Virus record (IMG/VR): IMGVR_UViG_3300045930_000161
Span: 1-32,891 of that record
Origin: a virus
Strand: one strand, 5' to 3'
DNA: 32,891 nucleotides
Position 1 is the first letter of the stretch; each line of letters starts with the position of its first letter. A program made the translations under genes and the position numbers. Below, piece after piece: positions 6,024 to 32,569 of this stretch. The notes below the pieces were generated by a model that was not told the origin of the DNA, searched no databases, and saw only the letters and a list, made by a program, of their open reading frames with translations.

Positions 6024-6691
6024 TACAAATTAGCTCCCATCGCTGTAGGCCCCGCGGCATCCTCGAATGCCAAATCATCCGCATACACAGCTTTCCGACC
6101 TTCCTGCATCATTCGAGTGAATAGCTGCACCGCCCCCGCGTCACGCTTATCCGCCGCCATTCGTATCCCGGCTTCCCCAATCAACCACCTATCCGCGTTT
6201 GCGAGCCACAGATTTTCAATATTACTATCCAATATCGCATCTTTACGATAATAGTTCCAAGTCATCGTATACGTGTTATCGGCTATTGTAACGAAGTCGA
6301 TTGTTGACTGTCGAATACTATACACGGCCGGGACCATGGTCGTAGCCGCGGGCTGATCTGGACGTTGCTGTGATTCGATAGCAATAACCGCATCGCGATA
6401 ATAGCGGTACTGTTTGAGGTAGTGACGCAGGTGTGAGTCTGGTGCAATAAAGTACAATTGGTTACCATCGTCAGCGCGAAGAAAATCGCTAGGCAAGGCA
6501 ACAGCACGGCTCCCGGCGTTCAATGTTATGGTCTGATCTTCGAGAAGCAGGAACCGCGGCAAGGTCTTACCCTGCTCTAGGTCGCGCTGGGCTTCCTGAA
6601 GGCATTGGATAATGTCGTTGGTCTGACTGTGACCGGGACGTAAAAAGCCCAAGCCGCGATTAATACGCAGGATGGCAGTGTCGCGATCCAT
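6023..6691 (-). CDS. Head-tail adaptor / tail tubular protein A-like
   Basis: 222 residues. The N-terminal helical part (AILRINRGLGFLRPGHSQTNDIIQCLQEAQRDLEQGKTLP, positions 5-44, shown in shortened form: INRGLGFLRP...QEAQRDLEQG) and the motif ALPSDFLRADD (about 69-79) are typical of podoviral adaptor proteins, which form a ring under the portal and hold packaged DNA. The C-terminal region with repeated aromatic residues (WNYYRKD, WLANADRWLIGEAG) also fits that family. A GGAGG ribosome site lies 6-10 bases before the ATG, and a 29-nt repeated dyad element lies about 20 bases upstream. Confidence 0.65.
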   Translation of the reverse strand: MDRDTAILRINRGLGFLRPGHSQTNDIIQCLQEAQRDLEQGKTLPRFLLLEDQTITLNAGSRAVALPSDFLRADDGNQLYFIAPDSHLRHYLKQYRYYRDAVIAIESQQRPDQPAATTMVPAVYSIRQSTIDFVTIADNTYTMTWNYYRKDAILDSNIENLWLANADRWLIGEAGIRMAADKRDAGAVQLFTRMMQEGRKAVYADDLAFEDAAGPTAMGANL

Positions 6692-23469: not shown

Positions 23470-24078
23470 CTAGGCGAGTAGATCATCCGTGGTAGCAACT
23501 TTGCGGCCGGTCATTGCGGCATACTGCGCGGCGATGCCGGGGTTCAACCGGCACGATGCCACGTAGGCTTTGCCAGTCTTTTCGTCGTTAAGCTTGCCAA
23601 GCTGCCGGGCCCGTTCGTTGTTGGACTCGATTTCGGCCTGCGTGCGCTTGCCATCGGCGACAAGGAACGCGCAGATAGCATCCGCCAGAACATCGAGATT
23701 GACGCGCGGCCCACCCTCACGCTCGCCCGTCCAAACGGGCGGGGTTTTGTTCAAGTCGTCGAGGGTTTCACGCACGGCGGCGATTTGACTGTCGTAGTCA
23801 AATTCGAACGGCTTAACGCCGTTTCGCTTTTGGTTGCGCACGCCGGAAGTGTCGTTAGTGAAACGCGTCTTGAGGCCGAAGAGCCCCGCCATCCGTTGGG
23901 CGTCGGGGCTCAAATCGGCCCACATCACCTGTACAGCCTGTTTGTTGCCAAGCAAGGTGTAGCGAATGCCGACGGCATCCTCTTCCTTGATACCATCGGG
24001 GCTTTCGCCAGCGGCGTTAAGCAGTTCATGTGTGGCGACGGCCTTGGACTCGGTTTCCTGTTCGGTTTCTTTAACCAT
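23470..24078 (-). CDS. Unknown 202-aa protein with shared ATTDDLLA tail
   Basis: 202 residues from ATG 24078, placed 45 bases after a predicted transcription start. N-terminus is Glu/Lys-rich (MVKETEQETESKAVATHELL); the middle has GIRYTLLGNKQAVQVMWADL, LFGLKTRFTNDTSGVRNQKR and a linker with TLDDLNKTPPVWTGEREGGP; the helical C-terminal third reads LDVLADAICAFLVADGKRTQ and NERARQLGKLNDEKTGKAYV. It ends in VATTDDLLA, shared with two rightward proteins (25257-25703 and 30690-30959). It has its own promoter, leader hairpin and terminator, unlike any other gene here. A regulatory or early replication role is suggested by this isolation; the family is not recognised. Confidence 0.75.
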   Translation of the reverse strand: MVKETEQETESKAVATHELLNAAGESPDGIKEEDAVGIRYTLLGNKQAVQVMWADLSPDAQRMAGLFGLKTRFTNDTSGVRNQKRNGVKPFEFDYDSQIAAVRETLDDLNKTPPVWTGEREGGPRVNLDVLADAICAFLVADGKRTQAEIESNNERARQLGKLNDEKTGKAYVASCRLNPGIAAQYAAMTGRKVATTDDLLA

Positions 24079-24084
24079 GATACT

Positions 24085-24113
24085 CAATCCCAGAGTTGGC
24101 CCGGCCGGGATTG
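24085..24113 (-). repeat. Leader inverted repeat over the ribosome site
   Basis: CAATCCC and GGGATTG (7 bp) flank a 15-nt loop containing CCGGCCGG, just upstream of ATG 24078. On the transcript the 3' arm GGGATTG(AG) is the only purine-rich stretch before the start, so folding could mask it. This suggests post-transcriptional control of the 202-aa gene. Confidence 0.45.
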
Positions 24114-24129
24114 GCGGGGCTACGCGATT

Positions 24130-24158
24130 AATATAGCCGCGCATCGCAGCGATTGCAA
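24130..24158 (-). promoter_or_regulatory. Sigma70-type leftward promoter
   Basis: On the minus strand TTGCAA (24158-24153) and TATATT (24135-24130) are separated by exactly 17 bases. The expected start near 24123 leaves a 45-base leader before ATG 24078. It sits in the divergent control region and is flanked upstream by two inverted repeats (24164-24185 and 24193-24221) that could be operators. Confidence 0.65.
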
Positions 24159-24163
24159 GCCCC

Positions 24164-24185
24164 GGGGCGAGAATATTTTCGCCCC
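24164..24185. repeat. 22-bp near-perfect palindrome, candidate operator
   Basis: GGGGCGA and TCGCCCC flank an AATATT centre; only one base pair of the eleven fails. It lies immediately upstream of the -35 of the leftward promoter, the usual place for an activator or repressor site. Confidence 0.6.
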
Positions 24186-24192
24186 TCACCGT

Positions 24193-24221
24193 GCCCCGTG
24201 GCATGGGGATTGCCACGGGGC
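24193..24221. repeat. Perfect 11-bp inverted repeat, candidate operator/hairpin
   Basis: GCCCCGTGGCA and TGCCACGGGGC flank a 7-nt spacer (TGGGGAT). The element is 29 nt long like the dispersed dyad element but is a different sequence. It lies 35 bases upstream of the leftward promoter in the divergent region. Confidence 0.65.
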
Positions 24222-24487
24222 GCGTAGGGCCTGGAGGCGGCACACACACAAGTTCTGTCGCGATTGCAACGGGGCAAAGTGATGAGACTCAAACCTCTAG
24301 TGTAACCTCCCAGTCCTGCCTCCAGGATAACCTATCCCATAGCCTCGGTAACCTGTTTTGGCGAATTCGCCCCGAAACCACCCCACCCCCAGGTATCCCG
24401 ACCTATGGTCTTATATGGGAGGTCCCCCCCCCCTCAGAACATCTCTCTTCCGAAGAGAAGAGCTCAGAGCTCTGAGCCACGACTTGG

Positions 24488-24518
24488 GGGCTACGCCACG
24501 TCAGGGCTACGCCACGTC
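24488..24518. repeat. Tandem duplication of a 16-bp unit
   Basis: GGGCTACGCCACGTC occurs at 24488-24502 and again at 24504-24518, one base apart. It could be an iteron pair for a replication initiator or regulator, but two copies are few. Confidence 0.6.
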
Positions 24519-24724
24519 GGGACCCGCTTGGGGCAATACCTGGCCTTAGCCGGGAAACCCTATGGGTTTCGGCAAAGCCGATATATGAGGTAATCTAGGT
24601 TACCCGGCAGGCTATCCGGCAGGTTTCACTGGAGGCTCCCAAGACGTATTGCAATATCCTTAGTTGACCAGCAGTATAAACCTATGCTAACCTACCAAAC
24701 CGCCCCGCCCCATCGGAGACCTCC

Positions 24725-25120
24725 ATGCCAAAACTACGTCAATGCGTATCGTGTGGTAGCACCACAATGTTGCCACATGCACGAAGATATTGTCCTACTT
24801 GCAGGTCAATAAAACGCAAGAACTATCATATGGAGCCCGAGAGGAGATCCCAGAACAACACTGCACGTAAGGCACGCCGCGCGGCGAGTAAAGGCACATT
24901 GGTCAAGCTACCTTGCTTCTGTGGCAATCCAAACGTTCAAGGTCATCATCCAGATTATACTAAACCTTTAGAAGTTATCTGGCTCTGTGCAAGACATCAC
25001 GTCCAACTCCATTCTATACTACGCAATGGAGATTCTAAAGAGCGGGTTCAAATACTTAATAGACTTAGTGAGCTAGAAGCACGCAAGATGAAAGAGCTGA
25101 AATTGAGGGCGGAAGATTGA
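24725..25120 (+). CDS. HNH-like zinc protein
   Basis: 131 residues, first gene of the rightward block, preceded by GGAGACCTCC. An N-terminal zinc ribbon (CVSCGSTT...RYCPTCRS, Cys at about 7, 10, 23, 26) and a basic stretch (RKARRAASKG) precede CFCG and GHHPDYTKPLEVIWLCARHH, which has the H-H and C-x2-H layout of HNH-type nucleases of phages (pattern HHxDYxKPLxVxWLC). A C-terminal helix (LSELEARKMKELKLRAED) follows. It may cut or bind DNA or assist packaging; nuclease activity is not certain because many members with this motif are uncharacterised. Confidence 0.65.
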   Translation: MPKLRQCVSCGSTTMLPHARRYCPTCRSIKRKNYHMEPERRSQNNTARKARRAASKGTLVKLPCFCGNPNVQGHHPDYTKPLEVIWLCARHHVQLHSILRNGDSKERVQILNRLSELEARKMKELKLRAED

Positions 25121-25144
25121 GCTATGCGTTTTTTACTTAGGGCA

Positions 25145-25200
25145 ATGCGCTGAGCGCATAACAATAGGTATTGACAGGTTGCCCTAGGTATGATCAGGTA
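25145..25200 (+). promoter_or_regulatory. Hairpin plus promoter-like leader
   Basis: ATGCGC and GCGCAT form a 6-bp hairpin (25145-25159), followed by TTGACA (25171-25176) and TATGAT (25189-25194). The 12-base spacing is too short for a normal sigma70 promoter. A similar arrangement, TTGACC (24664-24669), TATGCT (24683-24688) and then GCCCCATCGG, precedes the HNH-like gene, and GCCCCATCGG recurs at 25205-25214. The shared layout suggests a common signal whose nature is unclear. Confidence 0.35.
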
Positions 25201-25256
25201 CCTTGCCCCATCGGCACGCGCCGACTCGGCCTCCCAACCCCATGAGAAGGCACCCC

Positions 25257-25703
25257 ATGCACGAATCCCCCCCTCTCGCCTACGTGATACACCATCACCA
25301 ACAGCGATGCCTGCATTGTGGCAGGTCGCACGACTATTGTGCGATCTACGCGCGCAACGATGTTAAGCCCGTTACGATAACGGGCTTAGGCCGTGCGGTT
25401 AGCAACCTGCACACCATTAAGCAACCCAGCGATGTTAATTGGAACGTTCCCATTGAGCATGCTGAAGCGAGAATAGTCGAGATTCCATTCTGTCACGCTT
25501 GCTATTCAACTGTAAGTCTGGCCCACAACTTAACCCCGCCACGGCCGCAAGTCGCAACCGGAGCCGCGGCTAAGACTTATGATGCCGCGGCCACGGTTTC
25601 AGGCGGCTATGCTGTTGAGTCCACAAGCCCCTTTCATAAGGTCGCCCCCAAGCCGCGGCGTGAACCCATTAAGGCCGCGACAATCGATGACCTGTTAGCA
25701 TAA
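25257..25703 (+). CDS. Zinc-binding early protein with ATIDDLLA tail
   Basis: 148 residues from ATG 25257, chosen for AAGG six bases upstream; in-frame ATG 25242 is an alternative. Two Cys pairs, CLHC with nearby His/Cys (RSHDYC) and CHAC (about residue 78), likely hold zinc. Between them lies TITGLGRAVSNLHTIKQ. The C-terminal 60 residues are Pro/Ala/Lys-rich and probably disordered (PKPRREPIKA), ending in ATIDDLLA. The last codons and the following TAACGGAGC are shared with the gene at 30690-30959. Function unknown; zinc fold and tail suggest a nucleic-acid or protein-binding adaptor. Confidence 0.7.
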   Translation: MHESPPLAYVIHHHQQRCLHCGRSHDYCAIYARNDVKPVTITGLGRAVSNLHTIKQPSDVNWNVPIEHAEARIVEIPFCHACYSTVSLAHNLTPPRPQVATGAAAKTYDAAATVSGGYAVESTSPFHKVAPKPRREPIKAATIDDLLA

Positions 25704-25713
25704 CGGAGCTATC

Positions 25714-25983
25714 ATGCATCCCGCAACCCCACGCGGCTTTGGCAACCACGTATTCGACGACCTCACCAAACACCTCAATCAACGCCTGCATAAGGCCGTC
25801 GAGGACTTTACCAGCCGCGTTCAATATATGGAATGCAGTACTAAGGAATCCACCATGGCCGCGGTCATAGCCTCGGCTCTGGAAATCGCCGGCATCGCCG
25901 CGACCGTAGGCGGCATGTCCCACAAGTCATTCATCCAGTTGGCCCACGAAACCTTCAACCGCTATCAGGAGCAAAAGCCATGA
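25714..25983 (+). CDS. Hypothetical protein
   Basis: 89 residues; GGAG eight bases before ATG 25714. Contains helices FDDLTKHLNQRLHKAVEDF and a small-residue hydrophobic stretch, MAAVIASALEIAGIAATVGG (about 48-67), that could be a membrane helix or a packed core, then HKSFIQLAHETFNRYQEQ. The stop overlaps the VWA gene start by four bases, so the two are translationally coupled. Not recognised; it could partner the VWA protein. Confidence 0.6.
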   Translation: MHPATPRGFGNHVFDDLTKHLNQRLHKAVEDFTSRVQYMECSTKESTMAAVIASALEIAGIAATVGGMSHKSFIQLAHETFNRYQEQKP

Positions 25984-26657
25984 CCGACTCAACCGATATC
26001 ATGCATCGCACTACGGATCTAGTCGATCCGAATAGCCGACCTTCAAATCTCGACTACATCGTCCTCGACGCCAGCGGCTCGATGTTATCCAAGTGGTTGG
26101 AGTCGCTCCAAGCCATCGACAACTACGTTGCGGGGCTCACCATCGATACACGCATCATTGCGGTCAGCTTCACAACCGGCACCGGCGGCAATGCCGAGTT
26201 TATTAAGTTTCGCGACTGTCGCCGCGAGGACTGGAAGCCGCTATTACTCGACCAGCCCCAATGCCGGGGCCATATGACCCCACTATACGACGCCATCAAC
26301 ACCTCCGGTCGCGAATGTCGCGACATCAATCCCATCCACAACTCAGTGGTTTATGTAACGGATGGTGAGGAGAACGCCTCTAAAACCACCCAGCCCCAAG
26401 CCAAGGCCATACTGGATTGGATGCGAGCCAAGGGTTGGCAGATCACATTCATTGGGTGTGACTTCGACAACAGCCATCAAGCAGCCCTGCTAGGCGGTAA
26501 CGCGCAAAGCGCGATCGGCGTCAGCAAGGCCCGCCTGGTCACTGCGACTAAGGAGCTAGCCAAGAAGCGTAACCTTTACAGCCAATTCGGCGTCCCGATG
26601 CATTGGAGCAAGGAAGACCATCAGCAGTTTGGTGGTTATATTGGAGGGGCGAAATGA
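25980..26657 (+). CDS. von Willebrand factor A (VWA) domain protein
   Basis: 225 residues. A complete metal-ion-dependent adhesion site is visible: Asp30, Ser32 and Ser34 in LDASGSM, Thr100 in HMTPLYDAI, and Asp128 in VVYVTDGEEN. Strand-helix alternation (IIAVSFTTGTGG, WQITFIGCDFDN) fits the Rossmann-like VWA fold. The last 60 residues lie outside the core. VWA proteins mediate metal-dependent protein contacts, often with AAA+ ATPases or in stress and defence operons; no such ATPase is seen in this window. It overlaps both neighbours by four bases and so belongs to a tight operon. Confidence 0.8.
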   Translation: MTDSTDIMHRTTDLVDPNSRPSNLDYIVLDASGSMLSKWLESLQAIDNYVAGLTIDTRIIAVSFTTGTGGNAEFIKFRDCRREDWKPLLLDQPQCRGHMTPLYDAINTSGRECRDINPIHNSVVYVTDGEENASKTTQPQAKAILDWMRAKGWQITFIGCDFDNSHQAALLGGNAQSAIGVSKARLVTATKELAKKRNLYSQFGVPMHWSKEDHQQFGGYIGGAK

Positions 26658-27001
26658 GAGCCCTTCAAGCTTCCGAGAAAGAGCAGGCTTGTGAGACTTG
26701 CGGCTCACAGCCTGGAGAGTTGTGTCGGACTAAAGGCAACAAGCCCGCATGCGAGCCTCACTCTGCTAGATACAAAGCATGGCACGAGCACGGTGTGGCC
26801 ACGGGCGCTGTTAAAGTCCCCCATCTCCAAATAAGCAACACATTCAAGCCTGAGTGCGAGTATGTTGTGACTGGTAAGATGTTAAATGCCATATTACGCG
26901 AGGCTGGGATTGGTACTACGTCGGCCTTTCAGAAGGAACGCGACATCAGAGCCATACTGCAATTCGCCGCACTAATTACAGATGCCCGTAGTTCGAAATA
27001 A
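26654..27001 (+). CDS. Zinc-finger protein (CxxC-PG-C type)
   Basis: 115 residues from ATG 26654, coupled to the VWA gene by ATGA, with GGAGGGG just upstream. Residues 13-34 (CETCGSQPGELCRTKGNKPA) plus CEPHSARYKAW form the CxxCxxxPGxxC...H-x2-R zinc motif common in small actinobacterial and phage proteins of unknown role. A second half with VTGKMLNAILREAGIG and helical end may be a separate domain. DNA binding is possible. Confidence 0.65.
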   Translation: MRALQASEKEQACETCGSQPGELCRTKGNKPACEPHSARYKAWHEHGVATGAVKVPHLQISNTFKPECEYVVTGKMLNAILREAGIGTTSAFQKERDIRAILQFAALITDARSSK

Positions 27002-27014
27002 CTGACCATCTAAA

Positions 27015-27058
27015 GAGGAGTGGGAGCGGATACTCAAAACCCTCAGCTCCCACCCCTT
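27015..27058 (+). repeat. Intercistronic hairpin
   Basis: GTGGGAGC (27020-27027) pairs perfectly with GCTCCCAC (27046-27053) around an 18-nt loop, and the stem extends by about four pairs (two certain) past an A-C mismatch. It lies in the 121-base gap after the zinc-finger gene. No T-run follows, so processing or attenuation is more likely than termination. Nothing else is seen in the gap. Confidence 0.5.
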
Positions 27059-27122
27059 CAATACCAGACCACCCAACTTTAACAACAATCCAGACCCAAC
27101 TGACGACAAGGGAACCCCTAAT

Positions 27123-27788
27123 ATGAGCCAACCTATGACAACGAGCGATGATTTCCCGCTTGACAGGTTCATCAAACTGCTCAACATGCTGCGGGATACA
27201 ACTAGTGACAATGAGAAGATTAATGCCATTCGCCTATGCAATGCGATGTTAGCGCGGAGTGGTTTGGACTGGGAACGTTTCGCCCGGGGCAAAATCACCA
27301 TAGTTAACGATCCTTTCAGCTCAATCGCCGAACCCCCCAAAGCCGCCGCAGCGCCACCACCTCCTCAACCCACCCCACCTCAACGCTCCCCCCGCGACAC
27401 CGCGATTGTCAATTCACGTCTCAACCTACTCCACAACAATCGCCACCATCTCCGCACTCACACCGCAACGCGGCTAGACCAAATCACAATCGATTGGCAA
27501 CACCACGCTCCTAATATGAGTGATGCCGACTATTCGTGGCTCAGTTCCGAAGCCGCGCAGTTCGACCTCAAACAACGCGACATCGCCGAAGTTGAACGTT
27601 ATTTAGATGTCTGCGACTTAGCCCCGCTCAACGATAGCGAAATCATCCGAGTCCGAGCTATCCGCATAACCTGGCAGCAATCCCAGCTTATGTGTGATCA
27701 CGACTACAGCTTCCTATCCAGCCTGTATCGCTACTACAATCGCCCAACTGGCGGTCCTGGTAAGCGGAAAGCTAAGAGGTTGTTCTGA
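27123..27788 (+). CDS. Unknown protein, N-terminal domain shared with 29424-29813
   Basis: 221 residues. Residues 14-58 (FIKLLNMLRDTTSDNEKINA, IRLCNAMLARSGLDWERFAR) form a helical module that closely matches the start of the protein at 29424-29813 and ends in the same RGK. This module resembles the short N-terminal domain that precedes variable regions in many phage early proteins. A Pro-rich linker (PPPPQPTPPQRSP) follows, then a second helical domain with DADYSWLSSEAAQF and CDHDYSFLSSLYRYY, an internal repeat of DYSxLSS. The basic tail is KRKAKRLF. Function unknown. Confidence 0.65.
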   Translation: MSQPMTTSDDFPLDRFIKLLNMLRDTTSDNEKINAIRLCNAMLARSGLDWERFARGKITIVNDPFSSIAEPPKAAAAPPPPQPTPPQRSPRDTAIVNSRLNLLHNNRHHLRTHTATRLDQITIDWQHHAPNMSDADYSWLSSEAAQFDLKQRDIAEVERYLDVCDLAPLNDSEIIRVRAIRITWQQSQLMCDHDYSFLSSLYRYYNRPTGGPGKRKAKRLF

Positions 27789-28177
27789 TGAGCTACATCT
27801 ATCTAGCCTCGCCCTATAGTCACCCTAACGCCTTAGTGCAAGAGATGCGCTACGTTGCAGCACGCGACGCCGTGGCCTGGCTCCTAAAACGCTGCATATG
27901 GGTATACTCTCCCATCGTCCACTGTCACCACCTCGCTTTGCATGAGTCCCTGCCTAAAGGCTATGCATTTTGGCGACCCTACAACAGGGCCATGCTCGAA
28001 GCTGCAACAGCACTATACATTTTAGATATAGTCGGCGCTTCAACTTCCGAAGGCGTCGCCGGCGAACACACACATGCTCAAAAGCTTAACTTACCCATCA
28101 CCGCGATGAAGCCCTCAAACGATCGCGATGGCTATGACTTCGACCCTCCACTCAACTCACTGGAGATAATCCAATGA
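27788..28177 (+). CDS. DUF1937-like (nucleoside deoxyribosyltransferase-like fold)
   Basis: 129 residues, start coupled to the preceding stop (TGATG). The N-terminus YIYLASPYSHPNALVQEMRY, the following HCHHLA with FWRPYNRAMLEAATALYIL, and STSEGVAGEHTHAQKLNLPI match the DUF1937/DUF4406 family, distant relatives of nucleoside 2-deoxyribosyltransferases. SPY and the S-xGV-xE motif are the conserved elements. A role in nucleotide handling or N-glycosidic bond chemistry is possible, but enzymatic activity of this family is not established to my knowledge. Confidence 0.7.
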   Translation: MSYIYLASPYSHPNALVQEMRYVAARDAVAWLLKRCIWVYSPIVHCHHLALHESLPKGYAFWRPYNRAMLEAATALYILDIVGASTSEGVAGEHTHAQKLNLPITAMKPSNDRDGYDFDPPLNSLEIIQ

Positions 28178-28395
28178 CCCTCCCCCTATACATCATCACC
28201 CTCGATGGCGATATGTTTCAGGTCTGTCTATACTTTAAAGGCGAGACCTATCCCATCCCAGGCAAGCGTTACACCTCCTACTATGTTGCCAACATGGTGA
28301 TAAAGCAGATGAAGGCGGAGGATTATAAGCATTGGCAAGAATCCTCACTCGCTAAACAGTCACGCGAATACGACGGCGAAGGAAAACCACTATGA
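28174..28395 (+). CDS. Hypothetical protein
   Basis: 73 residues, coupled to the preceding stop by ATGA and to the next ORF the same way. The start LPLYIITLDGDMFQVCLYFKG is beta-hairpin-like, the rest charged and helical (YYVANMVIKQMKAEDYKHWQ). Not recognised. Confidence 0.55.
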   Translation: MTLPLYIITLDGDMFQVCLYFKGETYPIPGKRYTSYYVANMVIKQMKAEDYKHWQESSLAKQSREYDGEGKPL

Positions 28396-28568
28396 TCACC
28401 GCAAGACACGAAATCACCCTAAGACGCCGCTTAAATCGCGTCATTGACGATTACTTCTACGGCGGTCAGACCCAAGACGATCTTGTGGTTAACATAGTTG
28501 ATGTTATCAAGCAGACTATAGAGGAAATGGAAAATGACAAAAGCCCCGCGATCACCAAACCCCGTTAG
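28392..28568 (+). CDS. 58-residue protein in an ATGA overlap
   Basis: ATG 28392 overlaps the preceding TGA; the frame runs to TAG 28566-28568 and overlaps the next gene by 35 bases. The peptide starts MITARHEITLRRRLNRVIDD, then YFYGGQTQDDLVVNIVDVIK and ends in ITKPR. It is mainly helical. It fills what would otherwise be a 138-base gap in a densely packed operon and keeps the overlap pattern, which supports its reality. Function unknown. Confidence 0.6.
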   Translation: MITARHEITLRRRLNRVIDDYFYGGQTQDDLVVNIVDVIKQTIEEMENDKSPAITKPR

Positions 28569-28986
28569 TAGCTTCGGACCTGAGCTGCTCAACGCCCTCA
28601 TCGAGGGCTCGAAGCGAAGGTTCGAAGTTAAAGGTGTAACCTATCGCGAAGCAGTAAAGTTCCGCCATCGCTGCCACCAGTTACGGCATCGAATGCGAGA
28701 AGAGAACCACCAACTCTCCGCTGTAGTAGCCAAGACTCGCATTAGTATTGTGTGGGATAGTACGACTGAGGTACTGTATAGTAAGAAGCGCGTCGCCTAC
28801 CCTAAGTCGGCCGACGCCAGAGTCAATATCGTCATCGAACCGCATGATAGTGAGTTCGCCGCGGCTTTAGCCGCGGCCGGTATCACCATCCGCCCCATCA
28901 CCGACGACGGCATAGTTCCGGCGACCGAAGGGAGCGGCTCTAACACTCCGACCCCCTCAATCGAAAAACTCTTAGGTGACCTATGA
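28534..28986 (+). CDS. Hypothetical protein
   Basis: 150 residues, GAGGA about 8 bases before ATG 28534. Contains a basic helical core (GVTYREAVKFRHRCHQLRHR) and a beta part with TRISIVWDSTTEVLYSKKRV and DARVNIVIEPHDSEFAAAL. After a disordered linker it ends in PSIEKLLGDL, which is acidic-hydrophobic like the shared DDLLA tail of other proteins here but not identical. Basic character suggests nucleic-acid binding. Not recognised as a family. Confidence 0.6.
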   Translation: MTKAPRSPNPVSSFGPELLNALIEGSKRRFEVKGVTYREAVKFRHRCHQLRHRMREENHQLSAVVAKTRISIVWDSTTEVLYSKKRVAYPKSADARVNIVIEPHDSEFAAALAAAGITIRPITDDGIVPATEGSGSNTPTPSIEKLLGDL

Positions 28987-29186
28987 CAACCAAACAGGAC
29001 CTGGTCGGCGAACTAGTCGTCGCCGCGCTGGAGACTCTCGACTGCTACCCCAGGCTCGTCGCCATGCCTGAAGAGGATAGCGCCACCGCGCTCAATCTCA
29101 ACCTCACGTTGGCGAACTTCTTCAACACCCTCATCGATAACCTTAACGAGTCGGCCAGGGAGAAGTACGATGCACCTCAAACCTAG
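28983..29186 (+). CDS. Small hypothetical protein
   Basis: 67 residues, coupled by ATGA to the preceding gene. Helical and acidic (QDLVGELVVAALETLDCYPR, LTLANFFNTLIDNLNESARE). Not recognised. Confidence 0.5.
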   Translation: MTTKQDLVGELVVAALETLDCYPRLVAMPEEDSATALNLNLTLANFFNTLIDNLNESAREKYDAPQT

Positions 29187-29203
29187 CTTGATGGAGAAGC
29201 TTA

Positions 29204-29446
29204 ATGAACCAACCCGGCATTGACATAATCCAGCGTCTCCGCTGGGTTAGCGTCCACGGCACTCAGGCCGACGCCAGAGCTGCAATGGACGCCGCGATAG
29301 AAGAGATCGAGCGTCTCAGGGCTCAGATCACACACCTAAGCAACTCCATCACAGGCACGATGCAGGTCGCGGCTGAAAATATACGACTCCAATCCGAACT
29401 CGGAATCATAAAGGCCAGACTCAATGAACACGAACGCAAAAGCTAG
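29204..29446 (+). CDS. Small coiled-coil protein
   Basis: 80 residues with GGAG before ATG 29204. Residues about 25-75 are heptad-like (DAAIEEIERLRAQITHL, AAENIRLQSELGIIKARLNE). It overlaps the next gene by 23 bases. A dimeric coiled-coil adaptor is plausible; the function is unknown. Confidence 0.55.
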   Translation: MNQPGIDIIQRLRWVSVHGTQADARAAMDAAIEEIERLRAQITHLSNSITGTMQVAAENIRLQSELGIIKARLNEHERKS

Positions 29447-29813
29447 TGACTTTGAAATCTTCATCAAACTAATGATGATGACCCAAAGCTCCAGCGATCA
29501 GGAGGCCCTTACGGCTCTGCGCAAAGCTAACGCTAAACTCGCCTCAATCAATCGCAATTGGGAAGAATTGCTTCGTGGTAAGGTAACCACGGCAGAGTTC
29601 CCCGACATCGCCATGGGTGGCAACCTCAACACAGGCGGCGGCGTTAAATACACCGACCAATTCATCACCGTCATGCTCGACGATCTCCTACTTGAGGTCC
29701 AAGGCAGCTTCCGCACTTTCGTGACCGATATTAATCGCTTCTGGGAAGAAAAGGGCTTCCTCACCGAAAAGCAATACAACGTGATTAAGAAGTCCTGGGA
29801 AATGCGGAGGTGA
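29424..29813 (+). CDS. Unknown protein with the same N-terminal module as 27123-27788
   Basis: 129 residues. Residues 9-53 (FEIFIKLMMMTQSSSDQEAL, TALRKANAKLASINRNWEEL, LRGKVTT) repeat the helical module of the 221-aa protein, here with the commoner ALRKANxxLA and WEELLRGK form. The second half is different (YTDQFITVMLDDLLLEVQGS, FLTEKQYNVIKKSWEMRR) and helical. Being the last gene before a promoter and a non-coding stretch, it closes this sub-operon. A shared scaffold or interaction module is inferred; function unknown. Confidence 0.6.
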   Translation: MNTNAKASDFEIFIKLMMMTQSSSDQEALTALRKANAKLASINRNWEELLRGKVTTAEFPDIAMGGNLNTGGGVKYTDQFITVMLDDLLLEVQGSFRTFVTDINRFWEEKGFLTEKQYNVIKKSWEMRR

Positions 29814-29845
29814 TAAAATAAATCCTTGACGTGGAAAAAAGGCCC

Positions 29846-29874
29846 TTGACAGGCGATAGGGCGGTTGTTACAAT
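29846..29874 (+). promoter_or_regulatory. Near-consensus sigma70 promoter
   Basis: TTGACA (29846-29851) and TACAAT (29869-29874) are separated by exactly 17 bases: a perfect -35 and a -10 with one difference from TATAAT. Transcription should start near 29881. It is the strongest rightward promoter I can see in the window, and the -10 lies inside copy C of the 29-nt dyad element, so a factor binding that element would block or help it. Confidence 0.8.
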
Positions 29875-29886
29875 CACAATCGCCCC
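29858..29886 (+). promoter_or_regulatory. 29-nt dyad element, copy C
   Basis: Arms AGGGCGGTTG and CAATCGCCCC surround TTACAATCA. Orientation is with rightward transcription. The last 15 bases (AATCACAATCGCCCC) are identical to copy A. It overlaps the -10 hexamer and the expected start, the typical place for a repressor site, and is immediately followed by a smaller dyad GCCCCAATGGGGC (29882-29894). Confidence 0.7.
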
Positions 29887-30115
29887 AATGGGGCTCAACC
29901 TCCAACCTTTACCCGGAGGCGCCAATGAAGTAACCACCCACCACATAGCCCTCGCTGTTCTACGGGCCCCCCAGACTCCGGCACAAGCACTCTGGGGGGT
30001 CCACAACACGATAGTAGCGGGATTTAGTGGTGGTCAGGAAAGCCACGTTAGACAGGTGGGGCGTCATAGTCCCGGTTTAGCGACACTCCTGCCCACCACT
30101 AAGTCCCCCAACTCG
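29881..30115 (+). ncRNA. Structured leader or small RNA
   Basis: Between the promoter and the gene at 30126 lie about 235 bases with strong pairing. The first large stem pairs 29964-29975 with 29991-30002, 12 bp with one G-U, including CCCCCCAGA/TCTGGGGGG, loop 15. The second pairs 30019-30039 with 30087-30107, 21 bp with one G-U and one T-C mismatch, enclosing 47 bases with an inner CCAC/GTGG hairpin. A two-codon minigene with a consensus ribosome site lies near the start. It could be a cis leader controlling the genes from 30126 or a free small RNA. A frame of 86 codons crosses it but lacks a ribosome site. Confidence 0.55.
29925..29933 (+). CDS. Two-codon minigene ATG AAG TAA
   Basis: GGAGG (29915-29919) stands 5 bases before ATG AAG TAA, an ideal ribosome site for a frame of two codons (Met-Lys). 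It lies 44 bases after the predicted transcription start, before the two large stems. In lambda, bar minigenes of this size act by peptidyl-tRNA drop-off, and short leader ORFs can control downstream folding. Either is an inference; chance occurrence is possible. Confidence 0.35.
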   Translation: MK

Positions 30116-30125
30116 GAGCACCACA

Positions 30126-30281
30126 ATGGTAAATCCAGCTATAGCTGAGAAGTTCTTCGAGCTTCTAGCCGAGATCGTACACGGTGACGAGCCATACACC
30201 GAAAAGCTTGCCACTCTACTAGCTCTCGGCGACGAGGCCGATAAGGCCAATCTTGAAGAACTCATTACATGGTTCAGCTAA
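30126..30281 (+). CDS. Small acidic helical protein
   Basis: 51 residues, with GGAG eight bases before ATG 30126, first gene after the structured leader. The sequence (IAEKFFELLAEIVHGDEPYT, KLATLLALGDEADKANLEEL) is acidic and wholly helical. It ends one base before the next ATG. Not recognised; acidic small phage proteins often inhibit host enzymes or mimic DNA, which is only a possibility here. Confidence 0.6.
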   Translation: MVNPAIAEKFFELLAEIVHGDEPYTEKLATLLALGDEADKANLEELITWFS

Positions 30282-30282
30282 C

Positions 30283-30480
30283 ATGCCCCTCCCCATCACC
30301 TATCCCAACCTCAAAGTCCTCCGCGACGCCTTCATTCGCGTCGCCGAGGACGATCAAGACGCCCGCATTATTGATTGGCTCGACGAACTATTAGACATCA
30401 CAGCGTTGCGGCCCAACTGGCCCCACACTATCACCCTCACCCCACAAGAATCAGTGAGCGGCTATGTCCCGACCATTTAA
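30283..30480 (+). CDS. Small acidic hypothetical protein
   Basis: 65 residues from ATG 30283, one base after the preceding stop. Reads LKVLRDAFIRVAEDDQDARI and IDWLDELLDITALRPNWPHT; the first half is helical and acidic. It overlaps the next gene by 17 bases. Not recognised. Confidence 0.55.
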   Translation: MPLPITYPNLKVLRDAFIRVAEDDQDARIIDWLDELLDITALRPNWPHTITLTPQESVSGYVPTI

Positions 30481-30697
30481 TCCTGACCTATCAGTGCCGT
30501 GGAAGATCAACCTCCCGGCTACAACCGCGGGCAAGGTCGAATACGCCCTTCTCGACCCCGTTCATAGCAAACCCATATACGGCAGTAGAAACCAGCTGCT
30601 CAAAGCTTTGCTTGAATGGTGGCTAGCCCGCGAAGCGGGGCAACCTCTCCCACCCGTTCCTACAATACTTGAACTTCGGGAGCGCAAGAATGACTAA
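30464..30697 (+). CDS. Ribbon-helix-helix-like protein
   Basis: 77 residues. After MSRPFNPDLSVPW comes KINLPATTAGKVEYALLDP, then KPIYGSRNQLLKALLEWWLA. A short basic strand (KINLP), a helix and the G-S-R-N-Q-L-LKALL helix follow the pattern of ribbon-helix-helix DNA-binding proteins, where the strand contacts DNA as a dimer. I recognise the opening as conserved in podoviral early regions. A possible regulator of the early promoters or dyad elements, inferred only from fold pattern. Confidence 0.55.
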   Translation: MSRPFNPDLSVPWKINLPATTAGKVEYALLDPVHSKPIYGSRNQLLKALLEWWLAREAGQPLPPVPTILELRERKND

Positions 30698-30959
30698 CAC
30701 CGAAACGAGCTATGTCTGGGACCCCGATCTCACCGACCCACGCTCACCGGTAGAGCTGGAGGCCCGGCGGCGAGAGATCACCGACCTGCTCAAAACCCAA
30801 TACAAGGGCTACAACGACCCAGAGGTTCCCTTTCCTCTCTTGCAGGAGCTGTCGGTTATAACCTCAACCCTCCGGCGCAAGAACGCCGGGCCTCCACGCG
30901 AGCCGCGCCGCGCGGCTGTTAAGCCCCAAGCCGCGACGATAGACGACCTACTAGCCTAA
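30690..30959 (+). CDS. Small protein with ATIDDLLA tail
   Basis: 89 residues from ATG 30690 with GGGAG eight bases upstream. The helical core (SPVELEARRREITDLLKTQY, LLQELSVITSTLRRK) is followed by a basic, Pro-rich linker (PPREPRRAAVKPQA) and the tail ATIDDLLA. Linker plus tail have the same layout as the zinc protein at 25257-25703, though the cores are unrelated. The helical part could form a dimer. Function unknown; the tail suggests a shared binding partner. Confidence 0.65.
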   Translation: MTNTETSYVWDPDLTDPRSPVELEARRREITDLLKTQYKGYNDPEVPFPLLQELSVITSTLRRKNAGPPREPRRAAVKPQAATIDDLLA

Positions 30960-31301: not shown

Positions 31302-31623
31302 CATAGCCCCGCCCGAACAGCAGAAGCTGGCCCGAACAATAGACAAACTCAAGCCAATGTTAGCCGCGGAATACGATCGCGGCTTTAACGACGGCCTCAA
31401 GTTCGTTATTAGCTGCCTTCGCCGCGCGGCTGACACCGTTGAAAAGCCTACCTATTCCGACTTTGAGCGTAAGTCGGGTAATGGTAGCCCCGGCGGCTCC
31501 ATCTACCGCGGCGTCTACCGCAGCGGCCAACTTCACTTCGCCTCCCAACTCCGCTCCGTAGCCACAGAGATCGAGTCCGCCCTCAAAGCAGTCGAGACAC
31601 CCCCCGATGGAACTAAAACCTGA
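31285..31623 (+). CDS. Hypothetical protein
   Basis: 112 residues. A helical N-terminal half (QQKLARTIDKLKPMLAAEYD, GLKFVISCLRRAADTVEKP) is followed by a Gly/Ser-rich turn (KSGNGSPGGSIYRGVYRSGQ) and a last helix (LRSVATEIESALKAVETP). It overlaps both neighbours, so it is coupled to the nuclease gene downstream. Not recognised; an accessory factor for that nuclease is possible by position. Confidence 0.55.
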   Translation: MPNEADIAPPEQQKLARTIDKLKPMLAAEYDRGFNDGLKFVISCLRRAADTVEKPTYSDFERKSGNGSPGGSIYRGVYRSGQLHFASQLRSVATEIESALKAVETPPDGTKT

Positions 31624-32569
31624 ACTACCCCTCTACATCGACAGCACCATGATGTCAACCTTCCGCAGTTGTATGCGGAAAGGTTATAACAACTTCATCC
31701 TCAACTGCACCTTACCCGGCGTTAGCATTGATTTGCATGCCGGCGGCTGCTTCGCCTCCGCATTGGAAGAAGTCTACATCCAAACCTGGGTCAACAAGCG
31801 CGACCTCCGCGACGCCCTCGCCGTGGCCCACGCCAGATTCCTACTCGAATGGGGGGACTTCGAGGTGCCAGAGTGGAAGCGCACCGCAAAGACCATGGAC
31901 CGCACCTGGGAAGCCGTTGAGCACTACTTCGCCACCTGGAGCCCTAAGACCGATCCCATCATCCCATATCACGACGCCCATGGCAATCCCACCATCGAAT
32001 ACACCTTCGCCATCCCCCTCACACCCACTTCCCGGATAGTCAGCGATGGACATTTCCCTCTGCACCCTAGCGGTAGTCCTTTCCTCTATTGCGGACGCTT
32101 CGACATGCTCGGAGCTCTGGCGGGAAAGCCCGTTCCCAAAGACGACAAAACCACCGGCTCAAGTATCGGTCAGTTCTGGGCCTCTCAATGGAACTTGCGC
32201 TCCCAATTCATGGGTTACGTCTGGGCATGTCAACAATGCGACATCCCAGCTGATAGTGTCGCCGTGCGTGGTATTGCTATCCAAAAGACCCAATTTACCA
32301 CGGCCGAGGCCCTCATCCCTTTCAGCCGCGACCTCATCTCGAGGTGGCACGAACAACTCCGTCGTGATCTCTGGCGCATCTACGATGCCTGGAACAGCAA
32401 CAAGTGGGACTACAATTTCGGCGACACCTGTACCGCTTACGGACTATGTCCTTTCATGGACGCCTGTCAAAGTGCCGCACCTGACAATTGGCTCTCATCT
32501 TTCGACCGTAGGACTTGGAACCCCCTCTATAAAGACCCTTCAAGGGAGCCAATTAATGCCGGAGCATAG
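31607..32569 (+). CDS. Cas4/RecB-type PD-(D/E)XK nuclease with four-Cys cluster
   Basis: 320 residues, the usual size of phage Cas4/RecB-like exonucleases. Motifs in order: IDSTMMSTFRSCMRKGY (11-27) with Cys22; HAGGCFASALEEVY (44-57) with His44; GRFDM (163-167) with Asp166; DDKTTG (179-184) with Asp179/180 and Lys181 (the D-x-K catalytic element); QFMGYVWACQ (200-209) with Gln200; and CTAYGLCPFMDAC with Cys275, Cys281 and Cys287. Cys22 with the last three could bind an iron-sulfur cluster. A function in DNA end processing during replication or recombination is likely. It overlaps the preceding gene by 17 bases and has no clear ribosome site. Confidence 0.8.
   Translation: MELKPELPLYIDSTMMSTFRSCMRKGYNNFILNCTLPGVSIDLHAGGCFASALEEVYIQTWVNKRDLRDALAVAHARFLLEWGDFEVPEWKRTAKTMDRTWEAVEHYFATWSPKTDPIIPYHDAHGNPTIEYTFAIPLTPTSRIVSDGHFPLHPSGSPFLYCGRFDMLGALAGKPVPKDDKTTGSSIGQFWASQWNLRSQFMGYVWACQQCDIPADSVAVRGIAIQKTQFTTAEALIPFSRDLISRWHEQLRRDLWRIYDAWNSNKWDYNFGDTCTAYGLCPFMDACQSAAPDNWLSSFDRRTWNPLYKDPSREPINAGA

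Follow-up and report, generated by a model that had tools for sequence, protein, structure and literature searches.

The window, which is the whole of an IMG/VR record and 32,891 bases long, comes from an uncultured tailed phage. Terminase, portal and capsid are encoded in its left part by the minus strand; in its right part, the plus strand carries small early genes. Three of the proteins encoded here end in nearly the same peptide. The first, of about 202 residues, is encoded at 23470-24078 on the minus strand and ends VATTDDLLA (23473-23499, minus strand); we refer to it and its homologues as family A. The second (family B; 148 residues, 25257-25703, plus strand) is a putative zinc protein with a CxxC...CxxC pattern and ends AATIDDLLA (25674-25700, plus strand). 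The third (family C; 89 residues, 30690-30959, plus strand), whose gene lies upstream of a PD-(D/E)XK exonuclease gene, has a short helical body and a basic linker of Ala, Pro, Lys and Arg, and it also ends AATIDDLLA (30930-30956, plus strand). The common C-terminal peptide was described in an earlier note on this DNA and is confirmed at these positions; the bodies in front of it were said to be unrelated, and BLAST finds no match between them. Among the 53 called proteins of the window, the chance expectation, computed from how often each amino acid occurs at the ends of this genome's proteins, is 6.8e-6 for pairs sharing an exact 7-residue tail and 6e-8 for triples with a common 5-residue tail.

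The genes for the two plus-strand proteins are also followed by the same letters, TAACGGAGC, to which the earlier note had drawn attention. The shared string is present, but it consists of the stop codon and the ribosome-binding site (GGAG) of the gene that follows (starting at 25714 and 30972, respectively), and thus it is not part of the tail signal. Searches of Pfam and PHROGs with families A and C returned nothing informative, A4 and A10 had no significant match among PDB sequences, and tblastn of P0001-P0003 against named phages gave none. When the exact peptide TIDDLLA was sought in viral contig DNA, the one match was antisense to a 630-residue gene and is attributable to chance. The AlphaFold2 model of family A has a pLDDT of 91.5, and comparison of this model with PDB structures gave no convincing match.

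Several neighbouring genes are of interest. Two plus-strand proteins belong to a further family, E: one, at 27123-27788, ends KRLF, and the other is at 29424-29813; neither has the tail. The protein at 28534-28986 (plus strand), which ends IEKLLGDL and had been thought to end similarly, does not belong with the tailed set, since its C-terminus does not track the tails across its family of 20 genomes (z = 1.0, 630/4000). The exonuclease of the recombination module (31607-32569, plus strand) is also tail-less, as is a conserved small protein at 30464-30697 (plus strand) with a ribbon-helix-helix-like fold, assigned by eye. The latter occurs in 41 genomes, adjoins the family C gene on its upstream side, both here and in the relatives inspected, and is possibly a DNA-binding regulator. 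Just upstream of the corresponding pair of genes in one relative (G005, locus L013, about 6220-6470), the end of a 244-residue protein is a low-complexity run of GCC and GAC codons (an Ala/Asp repeat). Near the family B gene, a protein with a von Willebrand factor A domain is encoded at 25980-26657, and another is found in the relative G006 (L018 6479-7183). GC-rich inverted repeats, seen by eye at 24170-24240, lie between the family A gene and the divergent gene for an HNH endonuclease (24725-25120).

Related contigs were reached by way of the terminase, and two of them, G005 (47.6 kb) and G006 (48.4 kb), encode proteins homologous to the tailed ones. Using the primase (DUF3987) of this phage group and its DNA polymerase, a PolA with an N-terminal uracil-DNA glycosylase domain (UDG-PolA), we found more than 150 loci. 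The set analysed comprises 53 genomes: the window, G005, G006, 46 whole or nearly whole contigs and four named phages (Microcystis phage Mel-JY34, Vibrio phage VS-ABTNL-3, ctMlz233 and Caulobacter phage Kuura). Genes were called with a home-made caller based on codon usage, followed by gap filling; the starts are uncertain, but the stops, which define the tails, are certain. In profile searches, family A was found in 45 of the 53 genomes (66 proteins, often two copies in a genome), family C in 43 and family B in 26.

The same gene families keep a matched tail, and its sequence varies by lineage. In G006, the tails are VRTTDDLMAAIT for family A, STSTDDLMKGLDL for B and VSTTDDLMIDI for C, with two further ones, ISTTTDDLMTGLDI on family D (encoded directly upstream of the gene for a Sak4-like ATPase) and KVTTADLMKDIDF on family E; in G005, family B ends LSPSDLLALL and family C ends LTPEDLLSQL. 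Further genomes have their own versions, given here in the order A, C and B: TVDDLAAMLG, SVDDLADMF and SLDDLCNMF in G009; SIDDLLG, SIDDLLL and TIDDLLF in G023; PQASDL, PSLEDL and PAIEDL in G013; VTADALI, SLEALI and TLEDLI in G011; and TSADLV, SINDLI and SLQELI in G035. In ctMlz233, G043 and the rest of their clade, family A ends DTDALLxxL and family C ends SDDLLSxL, and many homologues of B are tail-less. The tails are thus lineage-specific (TTDDLM..., LTPEDLLSQL/LSPSDLLALL, SVDDLADMF/SLDDLCNMF, PSLEDL, DTDALLxxL/SDDLLSxL). The genes of the relatives carry tails other than those of the window, yet these match inside each genome, as a shared partner predicts, and the idea of docking put forward in the earlier note survives the check set for it there, by which unrelated tails on the same genes in relatives would have counted against it.

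This matching was assessed by permutation. Tails of A and C have a mean alignment score of 22.6 when both come from one genome and of 14.1 when they come from different ones (n = 37, z = 10.4, 0/20,000 permutations), and when one genome is taken from each of 15 clades, defined at under 50% PolA identity, the means are 22.8 and 12.5 (n = 15, z = 7.9, 0/20,000). Tails of C and B also match within genomes (z = 7.1, 0/20,000; 11/20,000 at the clade level), as do those of A and B (z = 4.2, 1/20,000), more weakly at the clade level (448/20,000). A loose motif common to all lineages raises the between-genome baseline, so the permutation test is conservative. In a second collection, of 69 loci reached by way of family A alone and with near-duplicates included, the result was z = 3.9 (1/20,000). 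The match stops at the tail: a control segment 17-30 residues from the end (-30 to -17) of A and C shows no within-genome match, and the C-termini of Sak4 and the primase, used as controls, do not track the tails.

Families A, B and C were chosen after the pattern had been seen in the window and two relatives, but a wider scan of all conserved families (those in at least 12 genomes) was not restricted to them; strong tracking was found in A, B, C and one B-related family only. In the same scan, no tracking was found for the C-termini of DNA polymerase, primase, SSB-like protein, Sak4, terminase, capsid or portal, and that of the scaffold protein is, if anything, below chance (z = -2.6). Blind comparison of non-homologous pairs found scores of at least 32 in 34 of 90,119 pairs within genomes and in 12 of 362,977 between genomes, an excess of 11-fold that rises to 28-fold at a score of 40. 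Phage lambda, taken as a negative control, has no tail pair at a score of at least 26. The tail pattern is real and extends across a large phage family.

Tails are also present on families D and E and on a DNA methyltransferase in a few genomes. Additional carriers number 18 at a score of at least 28, as against 2-4 expected, and include zinc proteins upstream of Sak4 as well as methyltransferases. Family E is tailed or tail-like in all eight other genomes that have it, the window copy at 27123-27788 being an exception, and its tails track those of the other families (z = 3.4, 25/20,000, nine genomes) despite the two tail-less members in the window. For the methyltransferase, the signal is weak and varies with the settings (19/4000 in one analysis, 891/20,000 in another). 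Besides the two window proteins of family E, the exceptions include family A in G045, which is without a recognizable tail.

The tails are acidic: mean net charge over the last 12 residues is -2.3 for A, -1.6 for C and -1.2 for B, compared with 0.0 for other proteins. The segment ahead of the tail is strongly basic in family C (+4.3), mildly so in A (+1.8) and not basic in B (-0.7); the basic, Pro-rich linker reported for the window proteins of B and C is therefore present in those two but is not a rule for family B as a whole. Several members of family A have the motif at a distance of up to about 20 residues from the C-terminus, which means that it can do without a free end in some proteins. 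The endings differ by lineage (-LLA, -LMIDI, -LEDL, -ADMF and -DNSDLL, and also LDL and SQL), and no tail of A, B or C ends in the PF of SSB-type tips. The bacterial beta-clamp motif is QLxLF; when the tails of the three families were compared with it, none had Gln at position 1 of the pentapeptide.

We think it fairly probable that the tails serve for docking to one common partner, each lineage having its own form of the motif, and that this partner is probably encoded by the phage and linked to DNA metabolism. The motif would be acidic-hydrophobic, roughly [ST]-x-[DE]-[DE/A]-L-[LMIF], and would sit at the C-terminus or close to it, borne by a flexible linker that in family C is basic. Several unrelated early proteins of one phage (A, B, C, D, E and sometimes a DNA methyltransferase) would carry the version particular to that phage, the same pocket would read all the versions within one phage, and changes in the pocket would cause all the tails to change together. 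The partner would most likely be a phage-encoded part of the replication or recombination machinery, at which the tails would gather accessory proteins. We infer a single common partner from the matching of the tails; that this partner is encoded by the phage and sits on DNA is more speculative.

Candidate partners were sought with partial Mantel tests of tail similarity against core-protein similarity, and no robust candidate emerged. The SSB-like protein gave a partial correlation of 0.21 (p 0.013, 35 genomes), which is not significant after six tests and is gone with 20 genomes. The major capsid protein gave 0.45 (0/1000, n = 20), but the correlation is lost inside the two capsid groups (-0.11 and 0.19) and is due to group structure. 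The scaffold C-terminus, considered as a source of the tails, does not match them.

The common partner might instead be a host protein, for example of the replication or transcription machinery, with the tails differing as the hosts differ. Lineage-specific tails common to a genome are equally expected in that case; furthermore, none of the phage core proteins shows clear co-variation with the tails, and the known hosts of the relatives vary widely (Vibrio, Caulobacter, Microcystis). Well-known host pockets that read a tail or motif, such as those of SSB-tip binders and the beta-clamp, are conserved across bacteria. Tails as unlike as PSLEDL and INVNELF are hard to reconcile with pockets of this kind, and the lack of an SSB-type PF end on any A, B or C tail also speaks against a host partner, which we regard as rather unlikely.

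Another use for a common tail would be to pack proteins into the head for delivery to the next cell, as with the internal proteins of T4. Family C is small and basic, and the major capsid protein was the one that tracked tail similarity best across groups, but the absence of that signal inside each capsid group, scaffold C-termini unlike the tails (z = -2.6, as above) and the tailed methyltransferases of a few genomes make a role as capsid cargo very unlikely.

Alternatively, the tails could be functionless, the inherited products of copying or recombination among the 3' ends of genes in one genome. Codon choice bears directly on this. In the two plus-strand genes of the window, synonymous differences had been reported along the tail, and indeed six of the seven TIDDLLA codons differ, only that of the second Asp (GAC) being identical; the preceding Ala-Ala is GCC GCG in both. 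Over the B and C tails of the window, three of nine codons are identical, compared with 2.8 expected from codon usage. For matched tails in general, at positions where the residues are identical, 130 of 293 codons agree and 110 are expected. This slight excess would speak for copying, but most shared residues differ in codon at a near-random rate, the match is seen in many lineages although their peptides differ and does not extend beyond the tail, and neutral copies are not expected to change in step. Since codon agreement is close to the expectation from codon usage, recent DNA copying is not the general cause of the tails; functionless copying is largely refuted and we consider it highly improbable. 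The simplest reading of the codon differences is selection on the tail peptide. Finally, C-terminal tags by which several early proteins would be handed to ClpXP or another host protease for degradation, also proposed in the earlier note, are extremely unlikely: the LLA ends of the window loosely resemble ssrA-type ends, but other lineages end LDL, IDI, SQL, EDL, DMF or DLL where ssrA and ClpX call for fixed residues at the extreme C-terminus, the motif is internal by up to about 20 residues in family A, and such diversification is not expected of a degron read by a conserved protease.

Docking of several proteins on one partner has its closest precedent in phage T4, where gp43, gp55 and gp33 bind the gp45 sliding clamp through highly similar, exchangeable acidic-hydrophobic C-termini (PMC2988020). 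There, as in the phages described here, similar hydrophobic-acidic C-termini are found on several unrelated proteins of one phage; unlike in T4, the tail is carried by three to six different protein families per phage and is strongly diversified among lineages. No gp45-like clamp was found among the conserved families named by Pfam or PHROGs, many families being unnamed and the contigs possibly partial. In phage T7, gp2.5 and gp4 have acidic C-terminal tails ending DF (EESEEADEDGDF and SESTDWSNDTDF), but these are only two proteins and their tails are weakly similar to each other, with a score of 23 compared with up to 49 in this family.

A literature search of open-licence papers found no report of this tail pattern. 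A common, co-varying tail offers a way to group phage proteins of unknown function into one assembly from sequence alone, and the lineages would supply a series of dozens of naturally diverged pairs of peptide and pocket. It also reduces a long list of unknown early proteins to one testable question: what do the tails bind?

Other genes of these phages give some context for that question. They encode the PD-(D/E)XK exonuclease, a Sak4-like annealing ATPase, a ParB-methyltransferase fusion, UDG-PolA, the DUF3987 primase and a conserved SSB-like protein of about 150-165 residues. The model of the latter (pLDDT 96.1) matches the ssDNA-binding protein PrgE (Z 10.0/9.7, rmsd 3.3/2.6, 114/103 residues), with many SSBs lower down, and three members match a PHROG SSB family. 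All 86 of its sequences are tail-less, ending 1-5 residues after the last strand. The acidic tip of E. coli SSB, for comparison, is DDDIPF. In phage HK620, the SSB encoded next to Sak4 recruits the latter with its tip NDYPPF (PMC5928155), and the phages studied here likewise combine a short acidic-hydrophobic C-terminal peptide with a Sak4-type module; unlike SSB tips, however, their tails sit on proteins other than the OB-fold SSB-like protein and lack the PF end. The parallel with SSB tips suggested by the earlier note thus holds for the type of peptide, a short acidic-hydrophobic C-terminus of the recruiting kind, but not for its ending or, judged by the SSB-like protein, its bearer, and the clamp-binding C-termini of T4 are closer. 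A specific form of docking would be a distributed SSB tail, in which the SSB has lost its recruiting tip and accessory proteins carry the equivalent, competing for one pocket on the recombination core of Sak4 and SSB, with pocket and tails co-diversifying into a private docking code for each phage; we offer this tentatively and think it unlikely.

Two further features of the relatives were seen. A 103-residue protein in G005 (L013 3417-3728) ends DDEIPF, a classic SSB-type tip, whereas the SSB-like protein of that phage is tail-less. A single gene encodes the UDG-PolA of ctMlz233 and of Mel-JY34, but in G006, G005 and VS-ABTNL-3 it is split between two, separated by at least one small open reading frame (PolA coordinates: L016 6900-8702 and 9888-10658 in G006; L013 13170-14972 and 15252-15995 in G005; L029 24872-28006).
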